Source: Haematobia irritans (lineage: Eukaryota; Arthropoda; Insecta; Diptera; Muscidae). Taken from it: a DNA stretch of 64,000 nucleotides. How positions within the stretch are numbered: position 1 is the stretch's first letter; each line of letters opens with the position of its first letter. The DNA lies in the NCBI RefSeq assembly GCF_050003625.1, contig NC_134401.1, positions 70,536,537 to 70,600,536 of the forward strand, written 5' to 3'. Shown here one piece after another: positions 44 through 23,472 of the stretch. A program made the position numbers and the translations under genes. The notes under the pieces were generated by a model that saw only the letters and a list, made by a program, of their open reading frames with translations, had not been told where the DNA came from and ran no database searches.

Positions 44-1188
44 TCATCGACTATATTATTTGTTAAAAGTCTCTCCGTACCAGTCTACCATAACAACACG
101 ATTACAACTAAAAAACAACCCACGCGCAAACATATATCGTAGATTACATCGATTACAGGTAGATAAAAGAAATATAGGAAAATTTCCTATATTCTATCAA
201 GTGTGTTTCCTTAAGTTTTGAAAGGATTGAATACTTCTTAGTACGAATGAACTAAAATAAGTTTCTATGCCAAGTTTTATTCGTATGTATGATAAGCTTT
301 AGTTCCGTTTTTGTTTATTTTTACGAATGCTTTGTTATGAGCGAATAAAATTTTCTTGTTCAGAAGTAAATTCTTATATAGCGAAGAAAACAGTATTAGC
401 AAAATTCCATGTCTTATTCTAGTTAATGTACTATTCCTAACTGCTTTCAGTTTAGGATTTTTTTTACTGTAACAAGTAAATTTTATTATTTCACACAAAA
501 ATTAAACTTAATGGAAATAAAATGGCTAAACTAAGTTGATGAACGTTTTTTCCTTTAGTTTCGAATGCACTTTTTTCTGGGTGTATTAGTAATAAAAATA
601 AAGAACGAAATTAAAAAAAATTATATTGATTGGACTAAATTTCGTTATTAAAAAATAAAGAGATTTATGGTTAAAAAATTGTGCTCTTACGAATAAACTA
701 AAACAGAAAACTTTAAAATTTTAAAATGAAGTGGATATTGATTGGCAATATTGTTAAGCATTTTGAATCATAGAAAATATTGCAAACAGTTACTTGCGAA
801 CTATTTTCTAAGACAAAATAAAAATAAAGTCCAGTCGACAAACATACAGTTGTTAAGGGAGCTAATCAATTCAAGAACGCAGAAAGGTACAGTTGAGCAG
901 AATGTTATTGCTGTCTTATGTGATTGGTGGCATCGATTTAAAAACTATTAATTATTTACCAAGTTTTGTAAATCTGTATTTTTTCTTTTTTGAAATTAAT
1001 TTTCAAAATCCTAAATATTTTTATATAAATTTTTCAAACTAAAATGTGTTAAATTACTAATTTAATTCGAAAGATTAAATATATAATTAAATTGTCTTTT
1101 ATTAACCTTTTCTCTAAGCTTATGAATTTAGACAGTTTATTGATTATTTAAATAAGTTTAGCGGGGATAATAAAAGAAAAAAACTGAA

Positions 1189-3133: not shown

Positions 3134-3729
3134 CTATTTGGGGTTTAAAAAAATTACAGGATTCTGCACAGATTTTATGACAGATGTAAGTGGCACTTGT
3201 AAAAAATTAATTTCATCTACAAATTCTTCATTTGAGCAGTATAGTCGATAATTTTGTTGGGTCACATCATCATTTGTATGCGTTTCAAATTCCCTTAAAT
3301 TTTCTTGTTGCAATTTATAACCCAGTTGTTCGCCAATATTTTGTCCGTTTGAGGAATATGGAGAAAGTCTCTCCATAAGAGCAAAGGTTTCGATTTTATT
3401 AAGCCTTGTTGCTAATGCCTCAATCATAGACTGGCATAACTGTCTTGTTTGCAGTATAGTCGATAATTTTGTTGGGTCACATCATCATTTGTATGAGTTT
3501 CAAATTCCCTTAAATTTTCTTGTTGCAATTTATAACCCAGTTGTTCGCCAATATTTTGTCCGTTTGAGGAATATGGAGAAAGTCTCTCCATAAGAGCAAA
3601 GGTTTCGATTTTATTAAGCCTTGTTGCTAATGCCTCAATCATAGACTGGCATAACTGTCTTGTTTGCTCAGTAGCGGTTTTAATTGCTACCTCAATAATA
3701 GCTTGTAATGCGGTGGCATCCATTTTCAC
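3134..3729 (-). pseudogene. Small coding-like segment, right arm (mirror copy)
   Basis: Reverse-complement counterpart of 1189-1784 with the same start, the same internal 215 bp duplication and the same frame break. The translated pieces are identical to those of the left arm, so the arms are very recent in origin or kept alike by conversion. Product unknown. Confidence 0.5.
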
Positions 3730-4343
3730 TTCAGTTTTTTTCTTTTATTATCCCCGCTAAACTTATTTAAATAATCAATAAAACTGTCTAAATTCATAAG
3801 CTTAGAGAAAAGGTTAATAAAAGACAATTTAATTATATATTTAATCTTTCGAATTAAATTAGTAATTTAACACATTTTAGTTTGAAAAATTTATATAAAA
3901 ATATTTAAGATTTTGAAAATTAATTTCAAAAGAGAAAAAATACAGATTTACAAAACTTGGTAAATAATTAATAGTTTTTAAATCGATGCCACCAATCACA
4001 TAAGACAGCAATAACATTCTGCTCAACTGTACCTTTCTGCGTTCTTGAATTGATCAGCTCCCTTAACAACTGTATGTTTGTCGACTGGACTTTATTTTTA
4101 TTTTGTCTTAGAAAATAGTTCGCAAGTAACTGTTTGCAATATTTTCTATGATTCAAAATGCTTAACAATATTGCCAATCAATATCCATTTCATTTTAAAT
4201 TTTTAAAGTTTTCTGTTTTAGTTTATTCGTAAGAGCACAATTTTTTAACCATAAATCTCTTTATTTTTTAATAACGAAATTTAGTTCAATCAATATAATT
4301 TTTTTTTTTAATTTCGTTCTTTATTTTTATTACTAATACACCC

Positions 4344-7559: not shown

Positions 7560-8786
7560 ATGCAGCGAAATTCCAAGTCATCCACTGGGTTGCTAACTTC
7601 AGGGCCCAGTGGACGGGTATCGACTGGAGTTATAAATCTGGGCAATGGCCAAGAGTTAGGCCCAATTAGTCGACCTGTAGACGGGTCGACAGGTGGCGAC
7701 ACTATGACAAGTCGAACTTTTTCTAAGGTAACGACATCAAAATGAGGTAATCCCTCACGAAAGAGATTCAAGGAACGCAGAAATGCTTTGCTTATCCTAA
7801 AGAAGTTAGGATCAGTCGACCCAAGCACGCTGTCGGCTAAACAAAGCGATTCCTTAAAATGGGCTCAAGGAATTCTTGAGAATGGAAAAAGGGAACGATC
7901 GCCGGATGAGTTGCCATCCTCCAAAAGGGATCAAAGATCGTTTGCCTCAGTTGCTAAAGACAGCCTTGTGATGGCTATCATTAATAAAGGAGCATTGGAC
8001 GGTATGGTTCCATAGCAAAAATGGGGGGAAATTGAGAATGCTCTGTCTGTCGTCTACTCACAGGTGCTGGAAAAGTTTCCCGGCCCAGATCCTCGACACC
8101 AAGAGGCTGGTTGGTATCAAGGACGATTTAAGCTAGTCGCATTTGAGGACCAGAGGTATATAGAATGTTTTAAAGCTGCTCTGATACTAATTGGTGAAGT
8201 TTGGGAAGGAGCTGCTCTAGAGTTAGTCGAGAAGAAAGACATACCGGCTAGACCTAGAGCACATGTGTGGATACCTGCAAACCCTTCTGACCCTGAATCT
8301 ATTTTAAATAGACTGAAACGATGCAATCCAGATCTTCCAACAGCTGATTGGAAGGTTGGCCGTTTGGATGAAGTGGATGGACCAAGACGGCATGCAGTGT
8401 TTATATTGAACACTCAGTCTTTGCCACATCTAGCAAAGTCCCAGGGCCGTGTATGTTATGGCTTTCATTATATCCAAATGAAGGTATATAAAAACGATCA
8501 GCTAAAGGATTCAGAAATGGACAAGCCTCTGTCTGAATCAGAAGTAAGCGGATCCTCTTGCGAAGTCGAGGGAGATACCAAAGTTGAAGACATGGATAGA
8601 CACCGTATGCGAGAGGAGGTTTCTATTGCCTCAGAACTCACCAAAGTTGAACCTATGGTTATTGCGAGAGTCACCGAGATCTCTGAAGAGGACATTCTTG
8701 ATGACTCGATTGACGCGGCTGATGTGACGGTTGTTGAAAATCTCGATGGTCCTACGGATCCTCCAGATAAATCTTCATCATTGTAA
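7560..8786 (+). pseudogene. LINE-A ORF1 (RNA-binding/gag-like protein), two nonsense codons
   Basis: One frame runs from ATG 7560 to 8786 (about 409 codons) except for a TGA at 7743-7745 and a TAG at 8013-8015. The N-terminal part is Ser/Thr-rich, followed by a basic stretch (RKRFKERR). The central part holds AHVWIPANPSDPESIL and WKVGRLDEVDG, then HLAKSQGRVCYGFHYIQMKV, resembling the arthropod retrotransposon ORF1 domain I know as DUF4780. The C-terminus is acidic. In LINEs ORF1 binds the element RNA and forms the RNP. It overlaps the ORF2 start by 56 bp in another frame. The family call is from memory, so moderate. Confidence 0.75.
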
Positions 8787-11700
8787 GGCTGCATGTGCTG
8801 CCTTAAAAGTTCTCCTGATGAAAGGGGACATAGATATAGTTCTTATTCAAGAACCATATGTTTATAGAAACAAAATATGTGAATTAAGTACTCCGGGGTT
8901 CAAGCTATTGCAGTATACTGGTAATGATGTAAATCGAGCCTGTATAATTGCTAAAAACAGGCTCAACTTGTTTCTGCTTCCTTCAATGTGCAATACAGAC
9001 ACTGTAGTTGCCAGTTTAGAAATAGCCAAATGCAAATATTGGGTATCTTCGGTCTACATGGGACACGACAGGGAGATGCCTCCATTTGCCGTTAAGACCT
9101 TAGTGGAGGAGTCACTGAAAACAAAGACGAAACTCATTATGGGATGCGATGCAAATGCACATCATAGTATATGGGGAAGTAGTGATACTAATGCAAGGGG
9201 AGAGTCGCTAATAGAGTTTATTTTGCGTACTAATCTGGTAGTTTGCAACAAGGGAGATGCCCCAACCTTTGTCACTAAAAACAGGCAAGAGCTTTTGGAT
9301 ATCATCTTGGCCTCGCAAGAACTGAATGAAATGATATCTGAGTGGCAGGTTTTAAGTGAACACAGCTTCTCAGATCATCGCTACATCAGTTTCAAATTTG
9401 ATGTTCATATCACCAAGACCATATTCCGCCAAATGTTAGGAAAGCTGACTGGAAAAGGTATAGGGAATCGTTCAATATGATGATACCGGAAATAATAGAG
9501 ACAAATATGAGAAATGTGCAAGATATCGAACACGCAGTGGAGCGGATTACTAAGGCCTTCAACATCTCACTGAAAGCTGCATGCCCTAGAGGAAAGCCAA
9601 GGGGGTGGTCTACGGAATTAAGTAATATGAGGAAATCCTGCAGGAAGCTCTTTAACAGGCAACGTCCACCAGAGCCCTTGAGGACTGGGACGCTTACAAG
9701 AAGAATCTGAGAGGATACAAGCGAGAACTGAGAAAGGCTCAGCATAACTCTTGGAATGATTACTACAGCAGTATTGAGAATACGTCCGAGGCTTCCAGAC
9801 TACGGAAGGTTCTAGCATCCACCAACTCCGCTCCAGGTTTCATTAAAACATCGGAGGGCAATTGGACAACGTCCAGTGAGGAGACGCTGGAGGTACTATT
9901 GGACACACATTTTCCTAGAAATCAGACGGTTGAACCATGTACTGGCGGTGCCACAGTTGCTCAGCGGTCGTTTCCTGTCGAGGAAATTGTATCGGAAACT
10001 AGAATAAGATGGGCGCTAAATAGCTTTGGACCATTCAAATCCCCCGGAACTGATGGAATTACTCCGGCGGAGTTACAAGCTGTAACTGACAAAATTATCC
10101 CCTGGTTGTCGGTGATATATAAAGGATGTATCAACTTATCATATATCCCAGGAAAGTGGAGGGAAACAAAAATCGTTTTCATACCTAAAGCGGGAAAAGC
10201 CTCTCACTCGAGGGCGAAGGATTTCCGACCAATCAGCTTATCCTCATTCCTACTTAAGACTCTGGAGAGGATGATAGATATTTATCTTAGAACTAGCATC
10301 GATTCAAGTTTGTTCTCGAAACGACAGCATGCATACTCGAAGGGCAGGTCTACTGAGACCGCACTACATGAACTAGTCAGCTTTATTGAAAGCTCACTAT
10401 CTTTCAAAGAATACACAATCGTGGCGTTTCTAGACATCGAAGGGGCGTTCAATAATGTCCATCCGAGCTCGATATTAAATGGACTGACAACTCTGAATGT
10501 TGATCCATGTATACTCAGGCTGTTAGATGAACTGCTAATGAAGAGACGTATTTCAGCCACACTAGGACAAGCAAACATACAAAGGTATGTGAACAGAGGC
10601 ACTCCCCAAGGAGGAGTTCTATCACCTCTTCTTTGGAATGTTGCTATAAATAGCCTTCTGGTTACTCTAGAAAAAGAAAGGATAAAAGTGGTGGCATACG
10701 CAGAGGATGTGGCTCTGGCAGTCAGGGAAAAATTCCCATCCACAATCAGAGATTTTATTCAGAGGGCCCTCCGGATGATTGAGATATGGGCGAAAGACAA
10801 TGGTCTTGGGGTAAATCCTGCAAAGACAGAATTAGTCATGTACTGCAAAGATCGCAAAACTCCCACGGTTAGGCCTATTTCCTTAGGGGGTATTGAAATT
10901 CCCTTTGGTGATTGTGCAAAATACCTTGGCGTTATTTTGGACAGGAAGCTGAACTTTAAGCTTAATATTGAAGAAAGGGCGAGAAAGGCAACTTTAGCTT
11001 TGTACTCGTGCAAAAAGGCAATAGGAAAAAAGTGGGGACTAAAACCAAAAATTGTGCATTGGCTATACACGGCAGTGGTTAGACCTATAATGCTATATGG
11101 TGTTGTAGTCTGGTGGCCGGCACTTCAGAAACCGACTTGTTTAGATAAAGTTCAGCGTATGGCGTGTTTGTGTACTTCAGGCGCATTCAGCAAGACAGGA
11201 ACAAATTCCCTTAATGTCATGCTGCATCTATTGCCTTTAGACATTTTGGTCAAACAGTCAGCTGCAACAACGGCTGTGCGGTTGCGCGAACTATCGCTGT
11301 GGTCGGAAAAAGGTTACGGTCACAGTTCTGTCCTCAAAATAATGCCAGATGTGCCTAACGTAGTGGATTACACTTTGGCGAGTCCACTTTTCGACAAAAA
11401 GTTTGAGACTCTAATCCCCAACAGTGAGGCGTGGTGCACACAGACCCCGGGGAATAAAGAATATATAGATTTCTACACTGATGGCTCCAAATTGGATGGA
11501 CAAGTGGGGTTCGGAGTATATTCTAATGATCTGGAACTTCGAATAGCAAAAAGATTACCTAATCACTGTAGTATTTTTCAGGCTGAAATATTAGCAATAA
11601 GAGAGGTGGCGAATTGGCTGAGAAGTAATGTTCCAAAAAATGTGGGCATTAATATATACTCAGACAGTCAACCTGCAATAAAATCCTTGGACTCTGTGTT

Positions 11701-12088
11701 CCTCAACTCGAAAACGGCCATCGACTGCCGCAAATCTCTCAATGAGATGGCTGAGCAGTACAATATTCACCTAATATGGGTGCCTGGCCATAGGAACATA
11801 CCGGGGAACTCCGAAGCGGATGAGTTGGCAAGGCTAGGGACTACCTTACATATTCCAGGGGAACTAGAATTTGTTGGTATGCCCCTAGCTACCTGCAAGC
11901 TCATGCTGCGTGAGAAGGCTGTTATGATGGCAAATGTTCGATGGGAGAATTGCAAGGGTTGTAACGACACCAAGCAAATATGGCCCCATTTCAACTTAAA
12001 CCGCACACTAGATATGCTAATGTTCTCGAGACGTCAGATATCACTCCTGATATCTGCTATAACGAGATGCCCCAACCTTTGTCACTAA
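8731..12088 (+). pseudogene. LINE-A ORF2, copy 1: EN-RT-RNase H, frameshifted
   Basis: The endonuclease starts at 8731 (LRILQINLHHCKAA, then IQEPY, MGCDANAHHSIWGSS, LLDIILAS and SFSDHRYISF). A missing T near 9424, relative to copies 2 and 3, shifts the frame. A second frame change near 9690, shared by all copies, follows a stop at 9708-9710. The RT-RNase H frame runs 9899-12088 (729 residues). RT motif A has FLDIEGAF (D179), motif B GTPQGGVLSPLLWN. Motif C reads YAED (Y267, E269, D270) instead of YADD, a hit on a catalytic aspartate. RNase H has FYTDGS (D528), FQAEIL, YSDSQPA and WVPGHRNIPGNSEADELA. At 12064 the RNase H end jumps back into endonuclease sequence. Confidence 0.9.
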
Positions 12089-15000
12089 AAACAGGCAAGA
12101 GCTTTTGGATATCATCTTGGCCTCGCAAGAACTGAATGAAATGATATCTGAGTGGCAGGTTTTAAGTGACCACAGCTTCTCAGATCATCGCTACATCAGT
12201 TTCAAATTTGATGTTCATATCACCAAGACCATATTTCCGCCAAATGTTAGGAAAGCTGACTGGAAAAGGTATAGGGAATCGTTCAATATGATGATACCGG
12301 AAATAATAGAGACAAATATGAGAAATGTGCAAGATATCGAACACGCAGTGGAGCGGATTACTAAGGCCTTCAACATCTCACTGAAAGCTGCATGCCCTAG
12401 AGGAAAGCCAAGGGGGTGGTCTACGGAATTAAGTAATATGAGGAAATCCTGCAGGAAGCTCTTTAACAGGCAACGTCCACCAGAGCCCCTGAGGACTGGG
12501 ACGCTTACAAGAAGAATCTGAGAGGATACAAGCGAGAACTGAGAAAGGCTCAGCATAACTCTTGGAATGATTACTACAGCAGTATTGAGAATACGTCCGA
12601 GGCTTCCAGACTACGGAAGGTTCTAGCATCCACCAACTCCGCTCCAGGTTTCATTAAAACATCGGAGGGCAATTGGACAACGTCCAGTGAGGAGACGCTG
12701 GAGGTACTATTGGGCACACATTTTCCTGGAAATCAGACGGTTGAACCATGTACTGGCGGTGCCACAGTTGCTCAGCGGTCGTTTCCTGTCGAGGAAATTG
12801 TATCGGAAACTAGAATAAGATGGGCGCTAAATAGCTTTGGATCATTCAAATCCCCCGGAACTGATGGGATTACTCCGGCGGAGTTACAAGCTGTAACTGA
12901 CAAAATTATCCCCTGGTTGTCGGTGATATATAAAGGATGTATCAACTTATCATATATCCCAGGAAAGTGGAGGGAAACAAAAATCGTTTTCATACCTAAA
13001 GCGGGAAAAGCCTCTCACTCGAGGGCGAAGGATTTCCGACCAATCAGCTTATCCTCATTCCTACTTAAGACTCTGGAGAGGATGATAGATATTTATCTTA
13101 GAACTAGCATCGATTCAAGTTTGTTCTCGAAACGACAGCATGCATACTCGAAGGGCAGGTCTACTGAGACCGCACTACATGAACTAGTCAGCTTTATTGA
13201 AAGCTCACTATCTTTCAAAGAATACACAATCGTGGCGTTTCTAGACATCGAAGGGGCGTTCAATAATGTCCATCCGAGCTCGATATTAAATGGACTGACA
13301 ACTCTGAATGTTGATCCATGTATACTCAGGCTGTTAGATGAACTGCTAATGAAGAGACGTATTTCAGCCACACTAGGACAAGCAAACATACAAAGGTATG
13401 TGAACAGAGGCACTCCCCAAGGAGGAGTTCTATCACCTCTTCTTTGGAATGTTGCTATAAATAGCCTTCTTGTTACTCTAGAAAAAGAAAGGATAAAAGT
13501 GGTGGCATACGCAGATGATGTGGCTCTGGCAGTCAGGGAAAAATTCCCATCCACAATCAGAGATTTTATTCAGAGGGCCCTCCGGATGATTGAGATATGG
13601 GCGAAAGACAATGGTCTTGGGGTAAATCCTGCAAAGACAGAATTAGTCATGTACTGCAAAGATCGCAAAACTCCCACGGTTAGGCCTATTTCCTTAGGGG
13701 GTATTGAAATTCCCTTTGGTGATTGTGCAAAATACCTTGGCGTTATTTTGGACAGGAAGCTGAACTTTAAGCTTAATATTGAAGAAAGGGCGAGAAAGGC
13801 AACTTTAGCTTTGTACTCGTGCAAAAAGGCAATAGGAAAAAAGTGGGGACTAAAACCAAAAATTGTGCATTGGCTATACACGGCAGTGGTTAGACCTATA
13901 ATGCTATATGGTGTTGTAGTCTGGTGGCCGGCACTTCAGAAACCGACTTGTTTAGATAAAGTTCAGCGTATGGCGTGTTTGTGTACTTCAGGCGCATTCA
14001 GCAAGACAGGAACAAATTCCCTTAATGTCATGCTGCATCTATTGCCTTTAGACATTTTGGTCAAACAGTCAGCTGCAACAACGGCTGTGCGGTTGCGCGA
14101 ACTATCGCTGTGGTCGGAAAAAGGTTACGGTCACAGTTCTGTCCTCAAAATAATGCCAGATGTGCCTAACGTAGTGGATTACACTTTGGCGAGTCCACTT
14201 TTCGACAAAAAGTTTGAGACTCTAATCCCCAACAGTGAGGCGTGGTGCACACAGACCCCGGGGAATAAAGAATATATAGATTTCTACACTGATGGCTCCA
14301 AATTGGATGGACAAGTGGGGTTCGGAGTATATTCTAATGATCTGGAACTTCGAATAGCAAAAAGATTACCTAATCACTGTAGTATTTTTCAGGCTGAAAT
14401 ATTAGCAATAAGAGAGGTGGCGAATTGGCTGAGAAGTAATGTTCCAAAAAATGTGGGCATTAATATATACTCAGACAGTCAACCTGCAATAAAATCCTTG
14501 GACTCTGTGTTCCTCAACTCGAAAACGGCCATCGACTGCCGCAAATCTCTCAATGAGATGGCTGAGCAGTACAATATTCACCTAATATGGGTGCCTGGCC
14601 ATAGGAACATACCGGGGAACTCCGAAGCGGATGAGTTGGCAAGGCTAGGGACTACCTTACATATTCCAGGGGAACTAGAATTTGTTGGTATGCCCCTAGC
14701 TACCTGCAAGCTCATGCTGCGTGAGAAGGCTGTTATGATGGCAAATGTTCGATGGGAGAATTGCAAGGGTTGTAACGACACCAAGCAAATATGGCCCCAT
14801 TTCAACTTAAACCGCACACTAGATATGCTAATGTTCTCGAGACGTCAGATATCACTCCTGATATCTGCTATAACGAGATGCCCCAACCTTTGTCACTAAA
14901 AACAGGCAAGAGCTTTTGGATATCATCTTGGCCTCGCAAGAACTGAATGAAATGATATCTGAGTGGCAGGTTTTAAGTGAACACAGCTTCTCAGATCATC

Positions 15001-17678
15001 GCTACATCAGTTTCAAATTTGATGTTCATATCACCAAGACCATATTTCCGCCAAATGTTAGGAAAGCTGACTGGAAAAGGTATAGGGAATCGTTCAATAT
15101 GATGATACCGGAAATAATAGAGACAAATATGAGAAATGTGCAAGATATCGAACACGCAGTGGAGCGGATTACTAAGGCCTTCAACATCTCACTGAAAGCT
15201 GCATGCCCTAGAGGAAAGCCAAGGGGGTGGTCTACGGAATTAAGTAATATGAGGAAATCCTGCAGGAAGCTCTTTAACAGGCAACGTCCACCAGAGCCCC
15301 TGAGGACTGGGACGCTTACAAGAAGAATCTGAGAGGATTCAAGCGAGAACTGAGAAAGGCTCAGCATAACTCTTGGAATGATTACTACAGCAGTATTGAG
15401 AATACGTCCGAGGCTTCCAGACTACGGAAGGTTCTAGCATCCACCAACTCCGCTCCAGGTTTCATTAAAACATCGGAGGGCAATTGGACAACGTCCAGTG
15501 AGGAGACGCTGGAGGTACTATTGGGCACACATTTTCCTGGAAATCAGACGGTTGAACCATGTACTGGCGGTGCCACAGTTGCTCAGCGGTCGTTTCCTGT
15601 CGAGGAAATTGTATCGGAAACTAGAATAAGATGGGCGCTAAATAGCTTTGGATCATTCAAATCCCCCGGAACTGATGGGATTACTCCGGCGGAGTTACAA
15701 GCTGTAACTGACAAAATTATCCCCTGGTTGTCGGTGATATATAAAGGATGTATCAACTTATCATATATCCCAGGAAAGTGGAGGGAAACAAAAATCGTTT
15801 TCATACCTAAAGCGGGAAAAGCCTCTCACTCGAGGGCGAAGGATTTCCGACCAATCAGCTTATCCTCATTCCTACTTAAGACTCTGGAGAGGATGATAGA
15901 TATTTATCTTAGAACTAGCATCGATTCAAGTTTGTTCTCGAAACGACAGCATGCATACTCGAAGGGCAGGTCTACTGAGACCGCACTACATGAACTAGTC
16001 AGCTTTATTGAAAGCTCACTATCTTTCAAAGAATACACAATCGTGGCGTTTCTAGACATCGAAGGGGCGTTCAATAATGTCCATCCGAGCTCGATATTAA
16101 ATGGACTGACAACTCTGAATGTTGATCCATGTATACTCAGGCTGTTAGATGAACTGCTAATGAAGAGACGTATTTCAGCCACACTAGGACAAGCAAACAT
16201 ACAAAGGTATGTGAACAGAGGCACTCCCCAAGGAGGAGTTCTATCACCTCTTCTTTGGAATGTTGCTATAAATAGCCTTCTGGTTACTCTAGAAAAAGAA
16301 AGGATAAAAGTGGTGGCATACGCAGATGATGTGGCTCTGGCAGTCAGGGAAAAATTCCCATCCACAATCAGAGATTTTATTCAGAGGGCCCTCCGGATGA
16401 TTGAGATATGGGCGAAAGACAATGGTCTTGGGGTAAATCCTGCAAAGACAGAATTAGTCATGTACTGCAAAGATCGCAAAACTCCCACGGTTAGGCCTAT
16501 TTCCTTAGGGGGTATTGAAATTCCCTTTGGTGATTGTGCAAAATACCTTGGCGTTATTTTGGACAGGAAGCTGAACTTTAAGCTTAATATTGAAGAAAGG
16601 GCGAGAAAGGCAACTTTAGCTTTGTACTCGTGCAAAAAGGCAATAGGAAAAAAGTGGGGACTAAAACCAAAAATTGTGCATTGGCTATACACGGCAGTGG
16701 TTAGACCTATATGGTGTTGTAGTCTGGTGGCCGGCACTTCAGAAACCAACTTGTTTAGATAAAGTTCAGCGTATGGCGTGTTTGTGTACTTCAGGCGCAT
16801 TCAGCAAGACAGGAACAAATTCCCTTAATGTCATGCTGCATCTATTGCCTTTAGACATTTTGGTCAAACAGTCAGCTGCAACAACGGCTGTGCGGTTGCG
16901 CGAACTATCGCTGTGGTCGGAAAAAGGTTACGGTCACAGTTCTGTCCTCAAAATAATGCCAGATGTGCCTAACGTAGTGGATTACACTTTGGCGAGTCCA
17001 CTTTTCGACAAAAAGTTTGAGACTCTAATCCCCAACAGTGAGGCGTGGTGCACACAGACCCCGGGGAATAAAGAATATATAGATTTCTACACTGATGGCT
17101 CCAAATTGGATGGACAAGTGGGTTTCGGAGTATATTCTAATGATCTGGAACTTCGAATAGCAAAAAGATTACCTAATCACTGTAGTATTTTTCAGGCTGA
17201 AATATTAGCAATAAGAGAGGTGGCGAATTGGCTGAGAAGTAATGTTCCAAAAAATGTGGGCATTAATATATACTCAGACAGTCAACCTGCAATAAAATCC
17301 TTGGACTCTGTGTTCCTCAACTCGAAAACGGCCATCGACTGCCGCAAATCTCTCAATGAGATGGCTGAGCAGTACAATATTCACCTAATATGGGTGCCTG
17401 GCCATAGGAACATACCGGGGAACTCCGAAGCGGATGAGTTGGCAAGGCTAGGGACTACCTTACATATTCCAGGGGAACTAGAATTTGTTGGTATGCCCCT
17501 AGCTACCTGCAAGCTCATGCTGCGTGAGAAGGCTGTTATGATGGCAAATGTTCGATGGGAGAATTGCAAGGGTTGTAACGACACCAAGCAAATATGGCCC
17601 CATTTCAACTTAAACCGCACACTAGATATGCTAATGTTCTCGAGACGTCAGATATCACTCCTGATATCTGCTATAACG
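9254..17678 (+). repeat. Three tandem copies of a 2811 bp internal LINE-A segment
   Basis: Unit starts: 9254, 12064 and 14875 (2810, 2811 and about 2804 bp). Each runs from the endonuclease (GAGATGCCCCAACC) to the end of RNase H (CTGCTATAACG). The junction ATAACG/AGATGCCCC is identical at 12064 and 14875. The last copy continues into the normal LINE 3' end (GGTCGCTGCC). The copies share the inactivating frame change near 9690, 12500 and 15310, so amplification occurred locally after death rather than by retrotransposition. They differ by a few substitutions and two small deletions. Confidence 0.93.
12105..14899 (+). pseudogene. LINE-A ORF2, copy 2: partial EN plus RT-RNase H
   Basis: Endonuclease C-terminus (LDIILASQEL to SDHRYISF) runs without the copy-1 frameshift to a stop at 12519-12521. 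RT-RNase H then occupies 12710-14899 (729 residues). Motif C is the canonical YADD (GAT GAT at 13514-13519). RNase H residues are as in copy 1. It differs from copy 1 also at MGTHFPG versus MDTHFPR and FGSFK versus FGPFK. It ends in the same artificial fusion as copy 1 (stop 14897-14899). Confidence 0.9.
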
Positions 17679-17930
17679 GGTCGCTGCCTTATAGGCGATT
17701 GTGCAAAAACTATTGGCGCGAAGTATAATGACTATTGTGTGAGCTGTCATGATGCGAAGGAAAAAGAGTCAATTAAACACCTCTTGTGTGAGTGTCCTGC
17801 ATTTTGTGCAAAGCGCAAGCAACTTTTAGGAGCATATAGCTTCAGATTACTGGCGGATCTGGAAAACGTTAACTTAAGCAGTCTGCTAATGTTTTTGGAA
17901 CAATCTGGTTGGTTCAACAAAGAAAAATAA
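14916..17930 (+). pseudogene. LINE-A ORF2, copy 3: EN part, RT, RNase H, zinc knuckle
   Basis: Same start as copy 2. RT runs 15521 to about 16710 with intact YADD. An 8 bp deletion at about 16709 (ATAATGCT missing) shifts the frame. RNase H then continues in the frame 16674-17930. Only this copy keeps the authentic C-terminus, with a cysteine/histidine cluster (CVSCHDAKEKESIKHLLCEC) typical of LINE C-terminal knuckles, and stops at 17928-17930. Confidence 0.9.
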
Positions 17931-18066: not shown

Positions 18067-18883
18067 ATACCCTGCACCACTTTGTAGATCTAAAGTTTCG
18101 ATACCATATCACATCCGTCAAATGTGTTGGATACTATATATAAAGGTTTGTCCCAAATACATACATTTAAATATCACTCGATTTGGACAGAATTTGATAG
18201 GCTTTTACAAAATCTATAGACTCAAAATTTCAGTTGGCTAATGCACTAGGGTGGAACACAATGTTAGTAAAAAAATATGAGAAAATATTTAAATCTTAAT
18301 AAAACTTCGCAAAAGTTTATTTATGATTTATCGCTCGATATATATGTATTAGAAGTTCAGGAAAATTAGAGTCATTTTTACAACTTTTCGACTAAGCAGT
18401 GGCGATTTTACAAGGAAAATGCTGGTATTTTGACCATTTTTGTCGAAATCAGAATAACATATATATGGGAGATCTATCTAAATCTGAACCGATTTCAACC
18501 AAATTTGACACGCATAGCTACAATGCTAATTCTACTCCCTGTGCAAAATTTCAACTAAATCGGAGCAAAAAATTAGCCTCTGTGGTCATATGAGTGTAAA
18601 TCGGGCGAAAGCTATATATGGGAGCTATATCTAAATCTGAACCGATTTCAACCAAATTTGGCACGCATAGCTACAATGCTAATTCTACTCCCTGTGCAAA
18701 ATTTCAACCAAATTGGGCCAAAACTCTGGCTTTTAGGACCCTATTAGTCCATATCGGGCGAAAGATATATATGGGAGATATCTAAATCTGAACCGATTTC
18801 AATCAAATTTTGCACACTTAACTATACGACTAAGTGTTATGTTTGTACAAAATTTCAAGCAAATCGGTATAAAACGCTGGATA
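18067..18883 (-). repeat. Repeat X, continued, with ~153 bp tandem units
   Basis: Resumes at ACCCTGCACCAC and matches the minus strand of 60395-60770. It then holds three units spaced 154 and 153 bp (TATATGGGAG at 18462, 18616, 18769), with TCTAAATCTGAACCGATTTC in each. No gene is visible. Confidence 0.8.
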
Positions 18884-19305
18884 TGGAGAAAGTCTCTCCA
18901 TAAGAGCAAAGGTGTCGATTTTATTAAGCCTTGTTTCTAATGCCTCAATCATAGACTGGCATAACTGTCTTGTTTGCTCAGTAGCGGTTTTAATTGCTAC
19001 CTCAATAATAGCTTGTAATGCGGTGGCATCCATTTTCACTTCAGTTTTTTTCTTTTATTATCCCCGCTAAACTTATTTAAATAATCAATAAAACTGTCTA
19101 AATTCATAAGCTTAATGAAAAGGTTAATAAAAGACAATTTAATTATATATTTAATCTTTCGAATTAAATTAGTAATTTAACACATTTTAGTTTGAAAAAT
19201 TTATATAAAAATATTTAAGATTTTGAAAATTAATTTCAAAAAAAAAAACAATACAGATTTACAAAACTTGGTAAATAATTAATAGTTTTTAAATCGATGT
19301 CACCA
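18884..19305 (-). repeat. Fragment of the palindrome-arm sequence, with truncated coding-like segment
   Basis: Matches the right arm from about 3560 to 3985. It encodes MKMDATALQAIIEVA on the minus strand (start 19039) without the 215 bp duplication. It is cut at 19305 by the Penelope-like fragment. This shows that the arm sequence is an interspersed repeat. Confidence 0.75.
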
Positions 19306-19470
19306 ACCACATCCTCATCAGCATTCTCTACTTGCAGCAAAACTATCAACCAATTATCAGAATAAATTCAGGCATTTCATTAAACCCAACAATGAACCAC
19401 ACTTGAACCTTCCGAAAAGAGGTTTTACATGATAGTCGGCTTATGCCGAAATAAATTCGTACAAATATAT
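19306..19470 (-). mobile_element. Penelope-like fragment, truncated inside the hammerhead
   Basis: About 160 bp match 23308-23472 in the same orientation (CTTGAACCTTCCGAAAAGAG, TTACATGATAG, CGAAATAAATTCGTACAAA). On the minus strand it ends within helix II of the hammerhead motif: stem I strand CTTGCAG complement and CTGATGA remain, the GAAA half is gone. The next ~90 bp (to 19560) hold nothing recognisable. Confidence 0.7.
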
Positions 19471-19559
19471 CTCTTTTCCGTTGCCACCGTCAAATCATCG
19501 ATTTGAGTGCAGTTGGCTGGGTTTATTTTGAGCATGCTTCCTATTCTTTCATTCGTTTT

Positions 19560-22500
19560 GTTTTGTTATTGTTGTTGTTGTTGTAACAATTTTTAATGTA
19601 GTTTCATCCATTTTGTTCTATGCTTGTGTAGTTCAGCTGGTAGCCAGATCAAGGAACTCTGGGACAAGGATGGGGTGTGTCCAGAGTGATCTGGTAGTGA
19701 TACGGGTAGGCTTAGCTGGGCAAGCAAAAAGGTGACGAGTGTCATGTGGCCCTTGATTACATATGGGACACACGTCAACTACGCTGCTATCAATCACTGA
19801 TAAGTATGAATTGAAGCGGCTGCACTTGCCTGATCTTAGTTGGGCCAAAACTACTCTTGTCTGCCTAGGGAGGTGTCTCTCCTCCGGTGCAATGGGCGGC
19901 GGTCGGACTCCGAGAACAGGATTAACCTTGTAGCTTCTCACCGCTTCAGCTACAGTATCCTCATGAATCCTGTTCAGACCTGTCTGGTATGCTGCCTGAT
20001 CTAGAGGCTCTCTTTTGTAACGCTGGATCTCTGGCTCTAGAAGGTGAAGATCAACCCTTACATTCCTGGGTGGAGGTTGTCTATCCACAAGATGGTGATT
20101 CGGATGACAACTTCGATGGCAACCCAAGAGGTACTGCTTTGACAACATGTAGTTGTATCGACGCACTGGGATGATCTTGGTCTCCGCATAAAGGTGATCC
20201 AGGGGTGTACTGCGGAGGCATCCTATTGCGGTTCTAAGGGCAGCGTTCTGACAGGTCTGTATGTTATTCCACTGCGTATCGCTCGTTTGAGGTGTCCACA
20301 CTGGCGCTGCATAGTTTACCACTGACCGGCCAATTGCCTTATATGTAGTTAACAAGGTTTCTTTGTCCGCACCCCAAGTGCTGCCGGCAAGCGACTTGAG
20401 GACCTTGTTTCTACCGCGGAGCTTATCACAAATTGCAGTGACATGGGCGGACGACTTATAAAGGCTGTCGAATGTGACCCCGAGAATCTTGGGGTAATTT
20501 GTTTTCGGAATTGTTTCGCCATCGACTCTGACATTCAACTGCCTGCGTACTTCCGCCGTCCATGTAGTGAATAGTGTGGCTGAGGATTTGGTGGGAGATA
20601 TCCTCAAATTTCTTACAGTTAATTAACTAGTAAGATCAGCGAGGAAGACATTTAATCGATCGCAAATGTCATCAACAATGGGCCCGGATGCCATGATTGT
20701 GCAATCGTCCGCATAAGACACAATCTCGACGCCGTCAGGAGGGGGTGGAATCGAGGACAGGTAGAGGTTAAACAGTGCTGGAGAAATCACCCCGCCCTGG
20801 GGAACTCCCTGTTTAACTCTACGAGGTTTTGACTTCTTGTCCCTGAACCCACGTACGACTGGCGTCCACACATATAATTCAGAACCCAACGCTTCGCCCC
20901 TGCCGGTAGGGACGTATTCTCGATGTCCTCGAATAATGTGGCATGGTTGACCGTATCGAACGCTTTCGATAGGTCAAGCGCCACGAGGACCGTCCTATGA
21001 CACGGCTTGGGCTGGTTAAGTCCCCTATTGATATGTGTCGAAATGGCATGTAAGGCCGTCGTCGTACTGTGTACCTTACGGAATCCATGTTGATGGTGGG
21101 CAGCTGGAAAATTCTCCACAAGGCTGGGGAGGAGTAGTGCCTCAAGTGTCTTGGCTACTGGCGAGAGAAGGGATATCGGTCTGTACGATTCACCTTTACT
21201 CGAATCTTTGCCTGGCTTCAGTAGTGGAATCACTCTTCCCATCTGCCAGACATCGGGTATAATGAGTGATTCCAAGGACAAATTGAGGAGTCTGGTCAGG
21301 TACTCAACTCCCAGTATTCCCAGATGCTTCAGCATTAGCATTGAAATTCCGTCGGGGCCCAGCGCCTTAGATGGTTTCGCGCTGTTGATGACATTGGTAA
21401 CTTCAGCTGCGGTAAATTGTGGTGTGTCGTCGGCTCGGAGACCACGTATGCGACGAGTGGCTCTCCTTTTCGCTCTATCACTCTCGGGGTGCTCGACAAA
21501 CAGTCGGCTGAAATATTTGGCGCATCTCTTCGGATCAGTCACAGTCACGTCGCCAAAGGTGACTGAAATCCCATCATCACTTGTAGCGGGGTTCGAGAGG
21601 GCTCTCACTGTTGACCACAATTTACCAGTCCCTGTGCCTAAGTTACATTGCTTCAGGTGCTCTAACCAAGTGTTCCTCTTGTGCTCGCCGACTATCTTAC
21701 TAATCTCTAGATTTAGTTCTCTGATTCTAGGATCAGCAGGGTTAGCACGACGGCGTTCATCACGCTCGTCTGCGAGTCCCGCCGCTTCGGCTGGGAAGTT
21801 GGGCCTCACTTGGGCAATTCGACCAGCGGGTATGAAGCGAGCGGCTGCTGCGTTGATGATGTCCCGGAACGCCCTCTGGGCAACATGAACATGAGAGGGG
21901 GACGGGAGCTCACTGAAGCGGCGATCGGTGTATTCTCTGAAGCCTTCCCAGTTGGCTTTCTTTTGATTGATAAACGTCCGGCGTTCAGAGGTTATGAAAT
22001 CGGAGGGTCGGTTAATGGTGAGAATTATGGGGAGGTGGTCCGATCCCAATGAAATGACGGGTTGCCAGGAAACGTCATTTATCAGACCAGGCGACGCTAA
22101 AGATAAATCTGGTGAACTGCTGCAGTCACCCATAATTCTCGTGGGGGCCTCTTCGTTCACCGTGCAAAATGTGGAGAAATCTATCTGCCATGCCAAAGCT
22201 ATGCCTCTCTGGTCATTACCTAGGAGTGAATGCCAAAGTTCATGGTGGGCATTAAAGTCTCCTAGAACCAATCGGTTATGCCCGCACATTAGCCACTCAA
22301 TGTTTGGGCAATAACCTGGAGCACAGCTACCAACCGGCGGTATATACACATTGTATAGCTCTATCTCGGCAGCCCCAGACTTGACTGCTACCCCCATACA
22401 TTCCATATACGGGTCACTAGTGTCTGGCACAAGCGGGATAGGTCTATACTACACGGAACGGTGTATTATGAAAGCCAGGCCACCACCTCCACTTCTTGTG

Positions 22501-23165
22501 CGATCCTTTCGAAGCACATTGTATCCATCACAATGGCGTAGGCTGCAGGTGGAATTCAGCTTAGTCTCCTGGATCGCTGCGACTCTTATCCTTTTCCGAT
22601 TCATAAAGTCCACGATTTCGCTAATCTTACCTCGGAGCCCGTTGCAATTAAATTGCAAAAACGATGCACTATCCGGAACTGGAACAATAATATTGGGTGT
22701 AAGATGCTGCGGCGGAGAATATTGTTGAACGGGAGATGTCGGGGGGCTCGCATAGTCAGACGACCCACTGGTGCTATCGTTGGCATAGCATCCTGCCACG
22801 TAGTCAGTGTGACTATACTCCCGCAGCGATGTTAAGCCGGAACAGTTCCGGTAATGCACCCACTCCAAGCACCGGTTACACCTTACCGAAACCGAACGGT
22901 GGTGGATCAGGTTTCGGCAGACTGAACAATACCATGGTCCAGGGTTCTCCTCTATCCCGGCTCGGACCAATAGCAAACGGAGAAGGCTCCCCGGGATGCA
23001 CCTTCTCCAACACAAAAAGACGGACGAAACAACACGTACACTGATTTGGCAGCCGCTGGCCAATGGATGGGTCCATCGGGAGAACCCGCCGCCGTGGGAT
23101 TGGGTTTTGTTCTTCAATCATTCATTCTTCAATCATTTGTTCTTCAATCATTGTTGTTGTTTTTT
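19560..23165 (-). mobile_element. LINE-B: jockey-like non-LTR retrotransposon
   Basis: Near full-length minus-strand element: short 5' region with three ~13 bp TTCTTCAATCATT repeats (23112-23158), one long ORF, and a 3' end in CAA repeats (plus-strand GTTGTTGTTGTTGTTG at 19570-19585). There is no RNase H, as in the jockey type. It lies between two same-orientation Penelope-like fragments (19306-19470 and 23166-23472). No clear target duplication was found. Confidence 0.88.
19633..23117 (-). pseudogene. LINE-B ORF: 2A-like motif, zinc finger, endonuclease, RT
   Basis: From 23117: hydrophobic N-terminus, 2A-like GIEENPGP (Pro61 at 22935-22937), then a Cys/His finger (C64, C67, C80, C83, H88, C92) of PHD-like spacing. 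Endonuclease follows: LQFNCNGLRGK, AIQETKL, LVLGDFNAHHELWHS, SLGSDHLPI. RT has LDLSKAFDTVNH, GVPQGGVISPALFN and SYADDCTIM. The C-terminus has a knuckle, CPICNQGPHDTRHLFACP. Breaks: TAG at 22449-22451 in the endonuclease, a frameshift between about 20815 and 20885 before motif B, and TAA at 20623-20625 after the YADD motif. Inactive. Confidence 0.9.
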
Positions 23166-23472
23166 TGATTTCAGCTTAAAACGATGCATTGACTAAACTA
23201 CAAGTGTAGCTTAACCAACAGAGGAAAAGAATGTTTGTCAAATTTATTTGGGCAAAGCCCTATAGACTGCAAGATGGTTGGATGGACGCACGTTTCGGAA
23301 TTACCACATTCCTCATCAGCATCCTCTACTTGCAGCAAAACTATCAACCAATTATCAGAATAAATTCAGGCATTTCATTAAACCCAACAATGAACCACAC
23401 TTGAACCTTCCGAAAAGAGGTTTTACATGATAGCCGGCTTATGCCGAAATAAATTCGTACAAACATATGAAT
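23166..23472 (-). mobile_element. Penelope-like terminal-repeat fragment with hammerhead
   Basis: Minus-strand sequence upstream of LINE-B. 23308-23472 is repeated at 19306-19470. It contains the complete hammerhead at 23267-23335 and a GGGCTTTGCCC hairpin just downstream. Hammerheads are known from terminal repeats of Penelope-like elements and retrozymes, hence the call. No Penelope ORF is attached; a separate Penelope nuclease relic is at 61580-61888. Confidence 0.6.
23267..23335 (-). ncRNA. Type I hammerhead ribozyme motif
   Basis: On the minus strand from 23335: stem I outer strand CTGCAAG (23335-23329), loop TAGA, stem I inner strand GGATG (23324-23320), core CTGATGA (23319-23313), stem II GGAAT (23312-23308), loop GTGGTA, ATTCC (23301-23297). 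Then GAAAC (23296-23292), loop GTGC and GTC (23287-23285), giving a 2 bp stem III. CATCC (23284-23280), internal loop AACCAT and CTTGCAG (23273-23267) close stem I. All core residues and the NUH site (GUC) are present; cleavage is predicted between 23285 and 23284. The very short stem III resembles that of Penelope/retrozyme hammerheads, which often work as dimers. Confidence 0.85.

Follow-up and report, generated by a model that had tools for sequence, protein, structure and literature searches.

Beside a LINE in the genome of the horn fly, Haematobia irritans, lies a complete hammerhead ribozyme, and the locus raises the question of which element the ribozyme belongs to. We have addressed this within the window, by which we mean the whole 64-kb stretch of DNA analysed (64,000 nucleotides), and against the 1.17-Gb assembly of 181 contigs that contains it. 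The locus is very probably a non-LTR retrozyme of the metazoan type, built from a 439-nt repeat that carries a type I hammerhead, and was later split by the LINE. The features on which this reading draws are as follows.

23267–23335, minus strand: complete type I hammerhead, also present in genomic copies, with predicted cleavage at 23285/23284
23104–23468, minus strand: first putative retrozyme unit, with the complete ribozyme inside; 41 of 45 genome matches are 96–98% identical over most of 23468–23136
23110–23152, minus strand: 15-bp minisatellite of 2.9 copies inside the first unit, not in the tandem copies L004 and L013
19570–23103, minus strand: LINE, with borders good to a few bases and ends common to other copies
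19306–19569, minus strand: second putative retrozyme unit, which resumes the first beyond the LINE and stops inside ribozyme loop II
19306–19337, minus strand: 5′ half of a second, broken hammerhead, with stems I and II both altered and the 3′ half missing
18881–19312, plus strand: another repeat bordering the second unit, with about 7 bases of shared sequence in overlap

Anatomy of the hammerhead

The hammerhead motif at 23335–23267 of the minus strand is real, and self-cleavage is predicted from its pairings. Stems II and III are closed and stem I is open. Stem I comprises an outer helix (CUGCAAG, 23335–23329, paired with CUUGCAG, 23273–23267) and an inner helix (GGAUG, 23324–23320, paired with CAUCC, 23284–23280), with UAGA forming one side of its internal loop between CUGCAAG and GGAUG. 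The core CUGAUGA (23319–23313) leads into a stem II of 5 bp (GGAAU/AUUCC, loop GUGGUA), which is followed by the core GAA and by a stem III of 2 bp (AC/GU) with the tetraloop GUGC; C17 is at 23285, and the predicted scissile bond is 23285/23284. A first-pass annotation, made from the letters alone, had proposed this hammerhead, and it holds up well here: every pairing that it named is present where it placed it, the complete minus-strand core (CUGAUGA, GAA, C17) is there in the letters, and the pairing layout predicts the same scissile bond. It described the motif as minimal; the short stem III is tetraloop-capped, and the stem I internal loop and loop II are also present. In excerpts of the published work, a 2-bp stem III with a tetraloop is called similar to invertebrate hammerheads (PMC7229834), and in the minimal type of Penelope elements the non-conserved portion of helix III is usually missing (PMC7761336). 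By chance, a 5/5/2-bp descriptor that does not demand the outer 7-bp stem is found once in 60 simulated 128-kb sequences, or 0.017 times per window with both strands counted.

In the covariance-model check proposed in the first-pass annotation, Rfam recognises the motif weakly. It returns no match at the gathering score over the 64-kb window and, when 1,001 bases are searched, no hammerhead with an E value of 10 or less; with 89 bases, the best match is to RF00163 (Hammerhead_1) at 16.1 bits (E 0.12), below the gathering score of 34. A genome-wide search with RF00163 gives no matches, with 73 of 151,042 candidates scored, and is uninformative because none of 14 controls was detected. A model built from genomic copies (R1) scores the window hammerhead, itself one of the 12 training rows, at 105.5 bits, and the broken second hammerhead at 18.8 bits (E 0.013). 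Counting against the motif, the isolated 69-mer reaches its energy minimum in a different pairing (−22.8 kcal/mol), the hammerhead fold being at −16.1 kcal/mol, under an energy model that leaves out the tertiary contact.

A dispersed family of 439-nt repeats

The ribozyme is a member of an abundant family. A core pattern that does not test stem I matches the fly genome 8,229 times (4,126 + 4,103), and the reversed-pattern control gives no matches. With a 357-nt query there are at least 45 matches (40 of 1,628 candidates scored), these being the window itself, 41 at 96–98% identity, and three short matches at 73–100%. The tandem copies L004 and L013 define a unit of about 439 nt (439 in L013) with a GC content of 0.37, and tandem spacings elsewhere are 438–443 bp between matches of the 357-nt query and about 441 bp between core-pattern matches. 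As a circle, one unit is predicted to fold at −119 kcal/mol, compared with −88.4 ± 6.4 for 60 mononucleotide shuffles (z −4.8), with 63% of the bases paired.

Conservation was compared across 44 distinct copies; these were the ones most similar to the window and are related to one another, so that the figures are indicative only. Changed cells number 8/572 in the core (1.4%), 7/880 in the loops, 34/1,584 in the stems and 315/11,616 in the rest (2.7%), with Fisher p values of 0.03 for the core, 7e-5 for the loops and 1.6e-5 for core plus loops. The core is kept in 36 of the 44 copies, and the core together with all 19 pairs in 22, while the 69-nt block as a whole is unexceptional, 14% of windows being equally low. 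The first-pass annotation would have been contradicted by a core no better conserved than its surroundings, and these comparisons do not contradict it: under position permutation core plus loops stand out (0.0006), and the core alone is weakly supported (0.10).

A variant ribozyme is present at L051 (G000:C1:4308830–4308862), where some 10 bases in the hairpin of stem II read as the reverse complement of the usual letters, as if inverted, and the core is intact. A single core-pattern match in the viral_contigs collection, at 966–1000 (+) of a 136-kb contig (L075), was rejected as a true hammerhead and is probably due to chance, because its flanks form no stem I by eye.

Insertion ends and genomic surroundings

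Two sets of loci were used to locate the ends of insertions, which were taken as BLAST ends; the limits of two AC-rich tracts (unit positions 128–148 and 160–185) were set after seeing the data. Sample 1 consists of the best matches, 39 loci of L004–L043, leaving out the window itself (L003) and L015, which duplicates L013. Sample 2 is positional and consists of the first 30 pattern places on C1, of which 25 were kept; L053, L060, L065, L066 and L068 are the same insertions as their neighbours and were dropped. In sample 1, 37/39 3′ ends lie at unit 160–185 and two elsewhere (214 and 282), although this sample is biased to the second tract because the query reached unit 149. In sample 2, 17/25 lie at 128–148, 6/25 at 160–185 and two elsewhere (122 and 64), placing 23/25 within the two tracts. 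Insertions longer than 1.02 units make up 18/39 and 4/25 of the samples, respectively. Inverted pieces abut the 5′ end in both sets, with 12 in 11 loci of sample 1 and 10 in 9 loci of sample 2, and 13 of these 22 (7/12 + 6/10) face the target with tract ends (binomial p of 8e-5 and 2e-4, respectively, for an expectation of 47/439). Copying of a linear RNA that had been released by cleavage and primed at its 3′ terminus would start at the cleavage site (unit 439/1), but the recurrent 3′ ends lie elsewhere, which suggests that priming takes place inside a circular or multimeric RNA. Most of the second tract is unpaired in the predicted circle, and most of the first is paired.

At least two copies of a 29-bp AT-rich satellite motif are found at 31 of the 41 loci L003–L043 (window and one duplicate included), and a loosened form of the motif occurs within 100 nt of the retrozyme 3′ end in 18/26 cases in sample 1 and 14/29 in sample 2 (duplicates included). 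In its strict form, the motif occurs nowhere in the 64-kb window. Among the flanks of L004–L074, many are in satellite with TTTCTATAGAAA every 29 bases. This association, together with the tandem arrays of the repeat, could point to satellite DNA spread by unequal exchange, in which the ribozyme would be incidental; however, the copies are often single or short inserts in which the same 3′ ends recur, the 5′ ends vary and the 5′ pieces are inverted, features that reverse transcription would produce, and we consider the satellite reading very improbable.

An equally slight chance attaches to the first-pass view that the repeat is a fragment of a Penelope-like element, which would make the hammerhead a minimal pseudo-LTR ribozyme. 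Its type I hammerhead, tandem copies, internal AC-rich starts and inverted pieces do resemble those of PAc, as described in excerpts of PMC11167929. However, the repeat is a 439-nt tandem unit, too short for a reverse transcriptase plus an endonuclease, and its stem III of 2 bp with a tetraloop is unlike that of Penelope-like elements. A genome search with PF01541, the sensitivity of which to Penelope endonucleases is uncontrolled, yields a sole GIY-YIG match (25 of 25 candidates scored), which is SLX1-like and sits beside a MED31-like frame. Judged by translation, this match is probably the host gene SLX1 and the neighbouring frame MED31-like.

The LINE and what moves the repeat

The LINE lies downstream of the ribozyme on the same strand and encodes a 2A-like GIEENPGP motif, an APE-type endonuclease and a reverse transcriptase in broken frames, ending in an (ACA)n tail. 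Among named sequences, the nearest to it come from flies (Musca, Stomoxys, Bactrocera, Lucilia and others), and it is presumably of the Ingi/Vingi kind. The GIEENPGP motif is near the start of the LINE frame, at about 22970–22930 (−), and the Stomoxys relative P0033 has GIEKNPGP. The C-terminal part is found at 123 or more genome places including the window, all at 91% identity or above (123 of 13,083 candidates scored), and many copies have open frames of 1,149 residues.

The borders were established from plus-strand copies hand-picked from the 123 listed places, 15 for the 3′ end and five for the 5′ end. All 15 fetched 3′ regions close with TTACAACAACAACAAC and then continue into other DNA, and all five 5′ starts are at ATCYCACGGCGGCGGGTTCT or a few bases earlier and are preceded by other DNA; the ribozyme is at the 5′ end of none of these five. 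Comparison of the retrozyme unit with the fetched LINE regions by BLAST gave, among the matches listed, only weak hits to short words or AC-rich stretches (best E 0.03), none of which touches the ribozyme. These shared ends indicate that the window LINE extends from about 23103 to about 19570 and that the ribozyme repeat was its target. In L004 and L013 the retrozyme is uninterrupted through the site where the window has the LINE. In the window, the first unit is 5′-truncated at about 23468 and interrupted at about 23104, and a direct repeat surrounds the LINE (23468–23303 versus 19470–19306, 162/166 identical), the first copy of which holds the 5′ half of the ribozyme. By these alignments the window locus is a 5′-truncated tandem retrozyme copy, cut in two by an unrelated LINE. 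The first-pass annotation was therefore right to place the ribozyme next to a LINE, and the empty site and LINE borders supply the cause: the two adjoin because the LINE landed in the repeat that carries the ribozyme. With one complete hammerhead kept, RNA from the window copy could be cut once and would yield no clean unit. More generally, the locus shows how a ribozyme can come to resemble part of a LINE through nested insertion.

The direct repeats flanking the LINE could be read as its own terminal repeats of 166 nt, with the ribozyme formed at the junction of tandem LINEs, as in Penelope pseudo-LTRs, and the ribozyme does span the end of one repeat and share the strand of the LINE; but this is the least probable reading of all, given that the fetched copies finish in (ACA)n followed by unrelated DNA (15/15), that their GC-rich 5′ starts follow unrelated DNA with no ribozyme match (5/5), and that the repeat is tandem without the LINE and far more widespread. 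Relatives of the LINE were sought further afield, with none found in viral_contigs or, using a single-sequence query, in genome_contigs; an alignment query of genome_contigs found one, L001 (JADGDE010000022.1), on a eukaryote-like contig in a bacterial MAG. The LINE on L001, which has a 2A-like motif, is eukaryote-like, and its assignment to the MAG of a Thiotrichales bacterium is probably due to contamination; it has an (ACA)n tail, and a scan of it showed no hammerhead. A LINE-encoded ribozyme is refuted for the copies examined, by L001, the empty sites and the LINE borders. The direct repeat was also considered as a long LINE target-site duplication, a reading rejected in view of the tandem copies of the repeat that have no LINE between them. 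A literature search on Vingi elements with hammerheads found nothing relevant.

Returning to the retrozyme reading, the hammerhead would cut read-through RNA once per unit into 439-nt pieces, which a host ligase may circularise. The reverse transcriptase of a retrotransposon would then copy the circle or multimer, starting internally at either AC-rich tract and perhaps traversing the ribozyme more than once, and the head-to-head inverted pieces suggest priming by both target strands. The insertion ends provide a sequence-level handle on the enzyme that moves metazoan retrozymes, which excerpts of PMC7229834 and PMC7761336 leave open while favouring Penelope, the former for moving retrozymes. 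We tentatively raise the possibility, though we lean somewhat against it, that a LINE reverse transcriptase does so by internal priming on circular RNA, with the AC-rich tracts as a built-in tail, such that cDNA could pass the ribozyme repeatedly and both target strands could prime. The ACAACAACA stretch at the first tract and the (ACA)n tail of the LINE are alike, and the genome has many intact-looking copies of this LINE, but the loosened satellite motif that lies near many retrozyme 3′ ends is at none of 15 LINE 3′ regions. If true, LINE priming would name a driver of metazoan retrozymes where PF01541 detected no Penelope endonuclease. A Penelope enzyme is also a candidate: in the excerpted account of PAc (PMC11167929), reverse transcription begins at two neighbouring internal sites within an AC-rich loop, AT-rich DNA is preferred and both strands are extended, and the hammerhead is unnecessary for insertion in vitro. 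Against it is the same sole SLX1-like GIY-YIG match, from a search of uncontrolled sensitivity to Penelope endonucleases.

Relation to known ribozyme elements

Metazoan retrozymes are described in excerpts of PMC7229834 as tandem repeats of 150–450 bp with GC below 50%. The fly locus fits the published non-LTR type (PMC7229834 and PMC7761336, in part) in its type I hammerhead, its repeat length and GC content and its thousands of dispersed copies; its circle, a predicted one, would be highly self-paired. By sequence, it is a new family, in a fly, of a known kind of retrozyme. It differs in its two internal AC-rich 3′-end tracts and in the many copies within 29-bp AT satellite. Target-site duplications in metazoan non-LTR retrozymes exceed 4 bp when present; words shared at 15 fly loci are of 5–26 bases, many inside the 29-bp satellite and hence ambiguous. 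The insertion-end pattern, with two AC-rich tracts in place of the cleavage site, is an addition to the published picture.

A hammerhead satellite has reportedly been described in cave crickets, and our literature search found no type I retrozyme described from a muscid. Insects are named just in general terms for retrozymes in the excerpts of PMC7229834. Dipteran genomes including that of Musca domestica also have hammerheads, but according to excerpts of PMC7936874 these are of type III with long helices, unlike the type I motif here. LINEs with 5′ ribozymes (R2 and others; PMC7761336, in part) similarly have a self-cleaving motif upstream of the frame; unlike the present case theirs is of HDV type, whereas here the ribozyme is a different one, the adjacency arose by insertion, and other LINE copies are without it.

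Other repeats are present in the window. The repeat at 18881–19312 is 97.7–97.9% identical to 918–1347 and 3571–4001, copies in mutually opposite orientation that have 215-bp tandem duplications nearby (1251–1682 and 3236–3667). At 8731–17930 (+), another LINE appears as a tandem of three copies at intervals of 2,811 bases, and its frames at 9899, 12710 and 15521 are near-identical.
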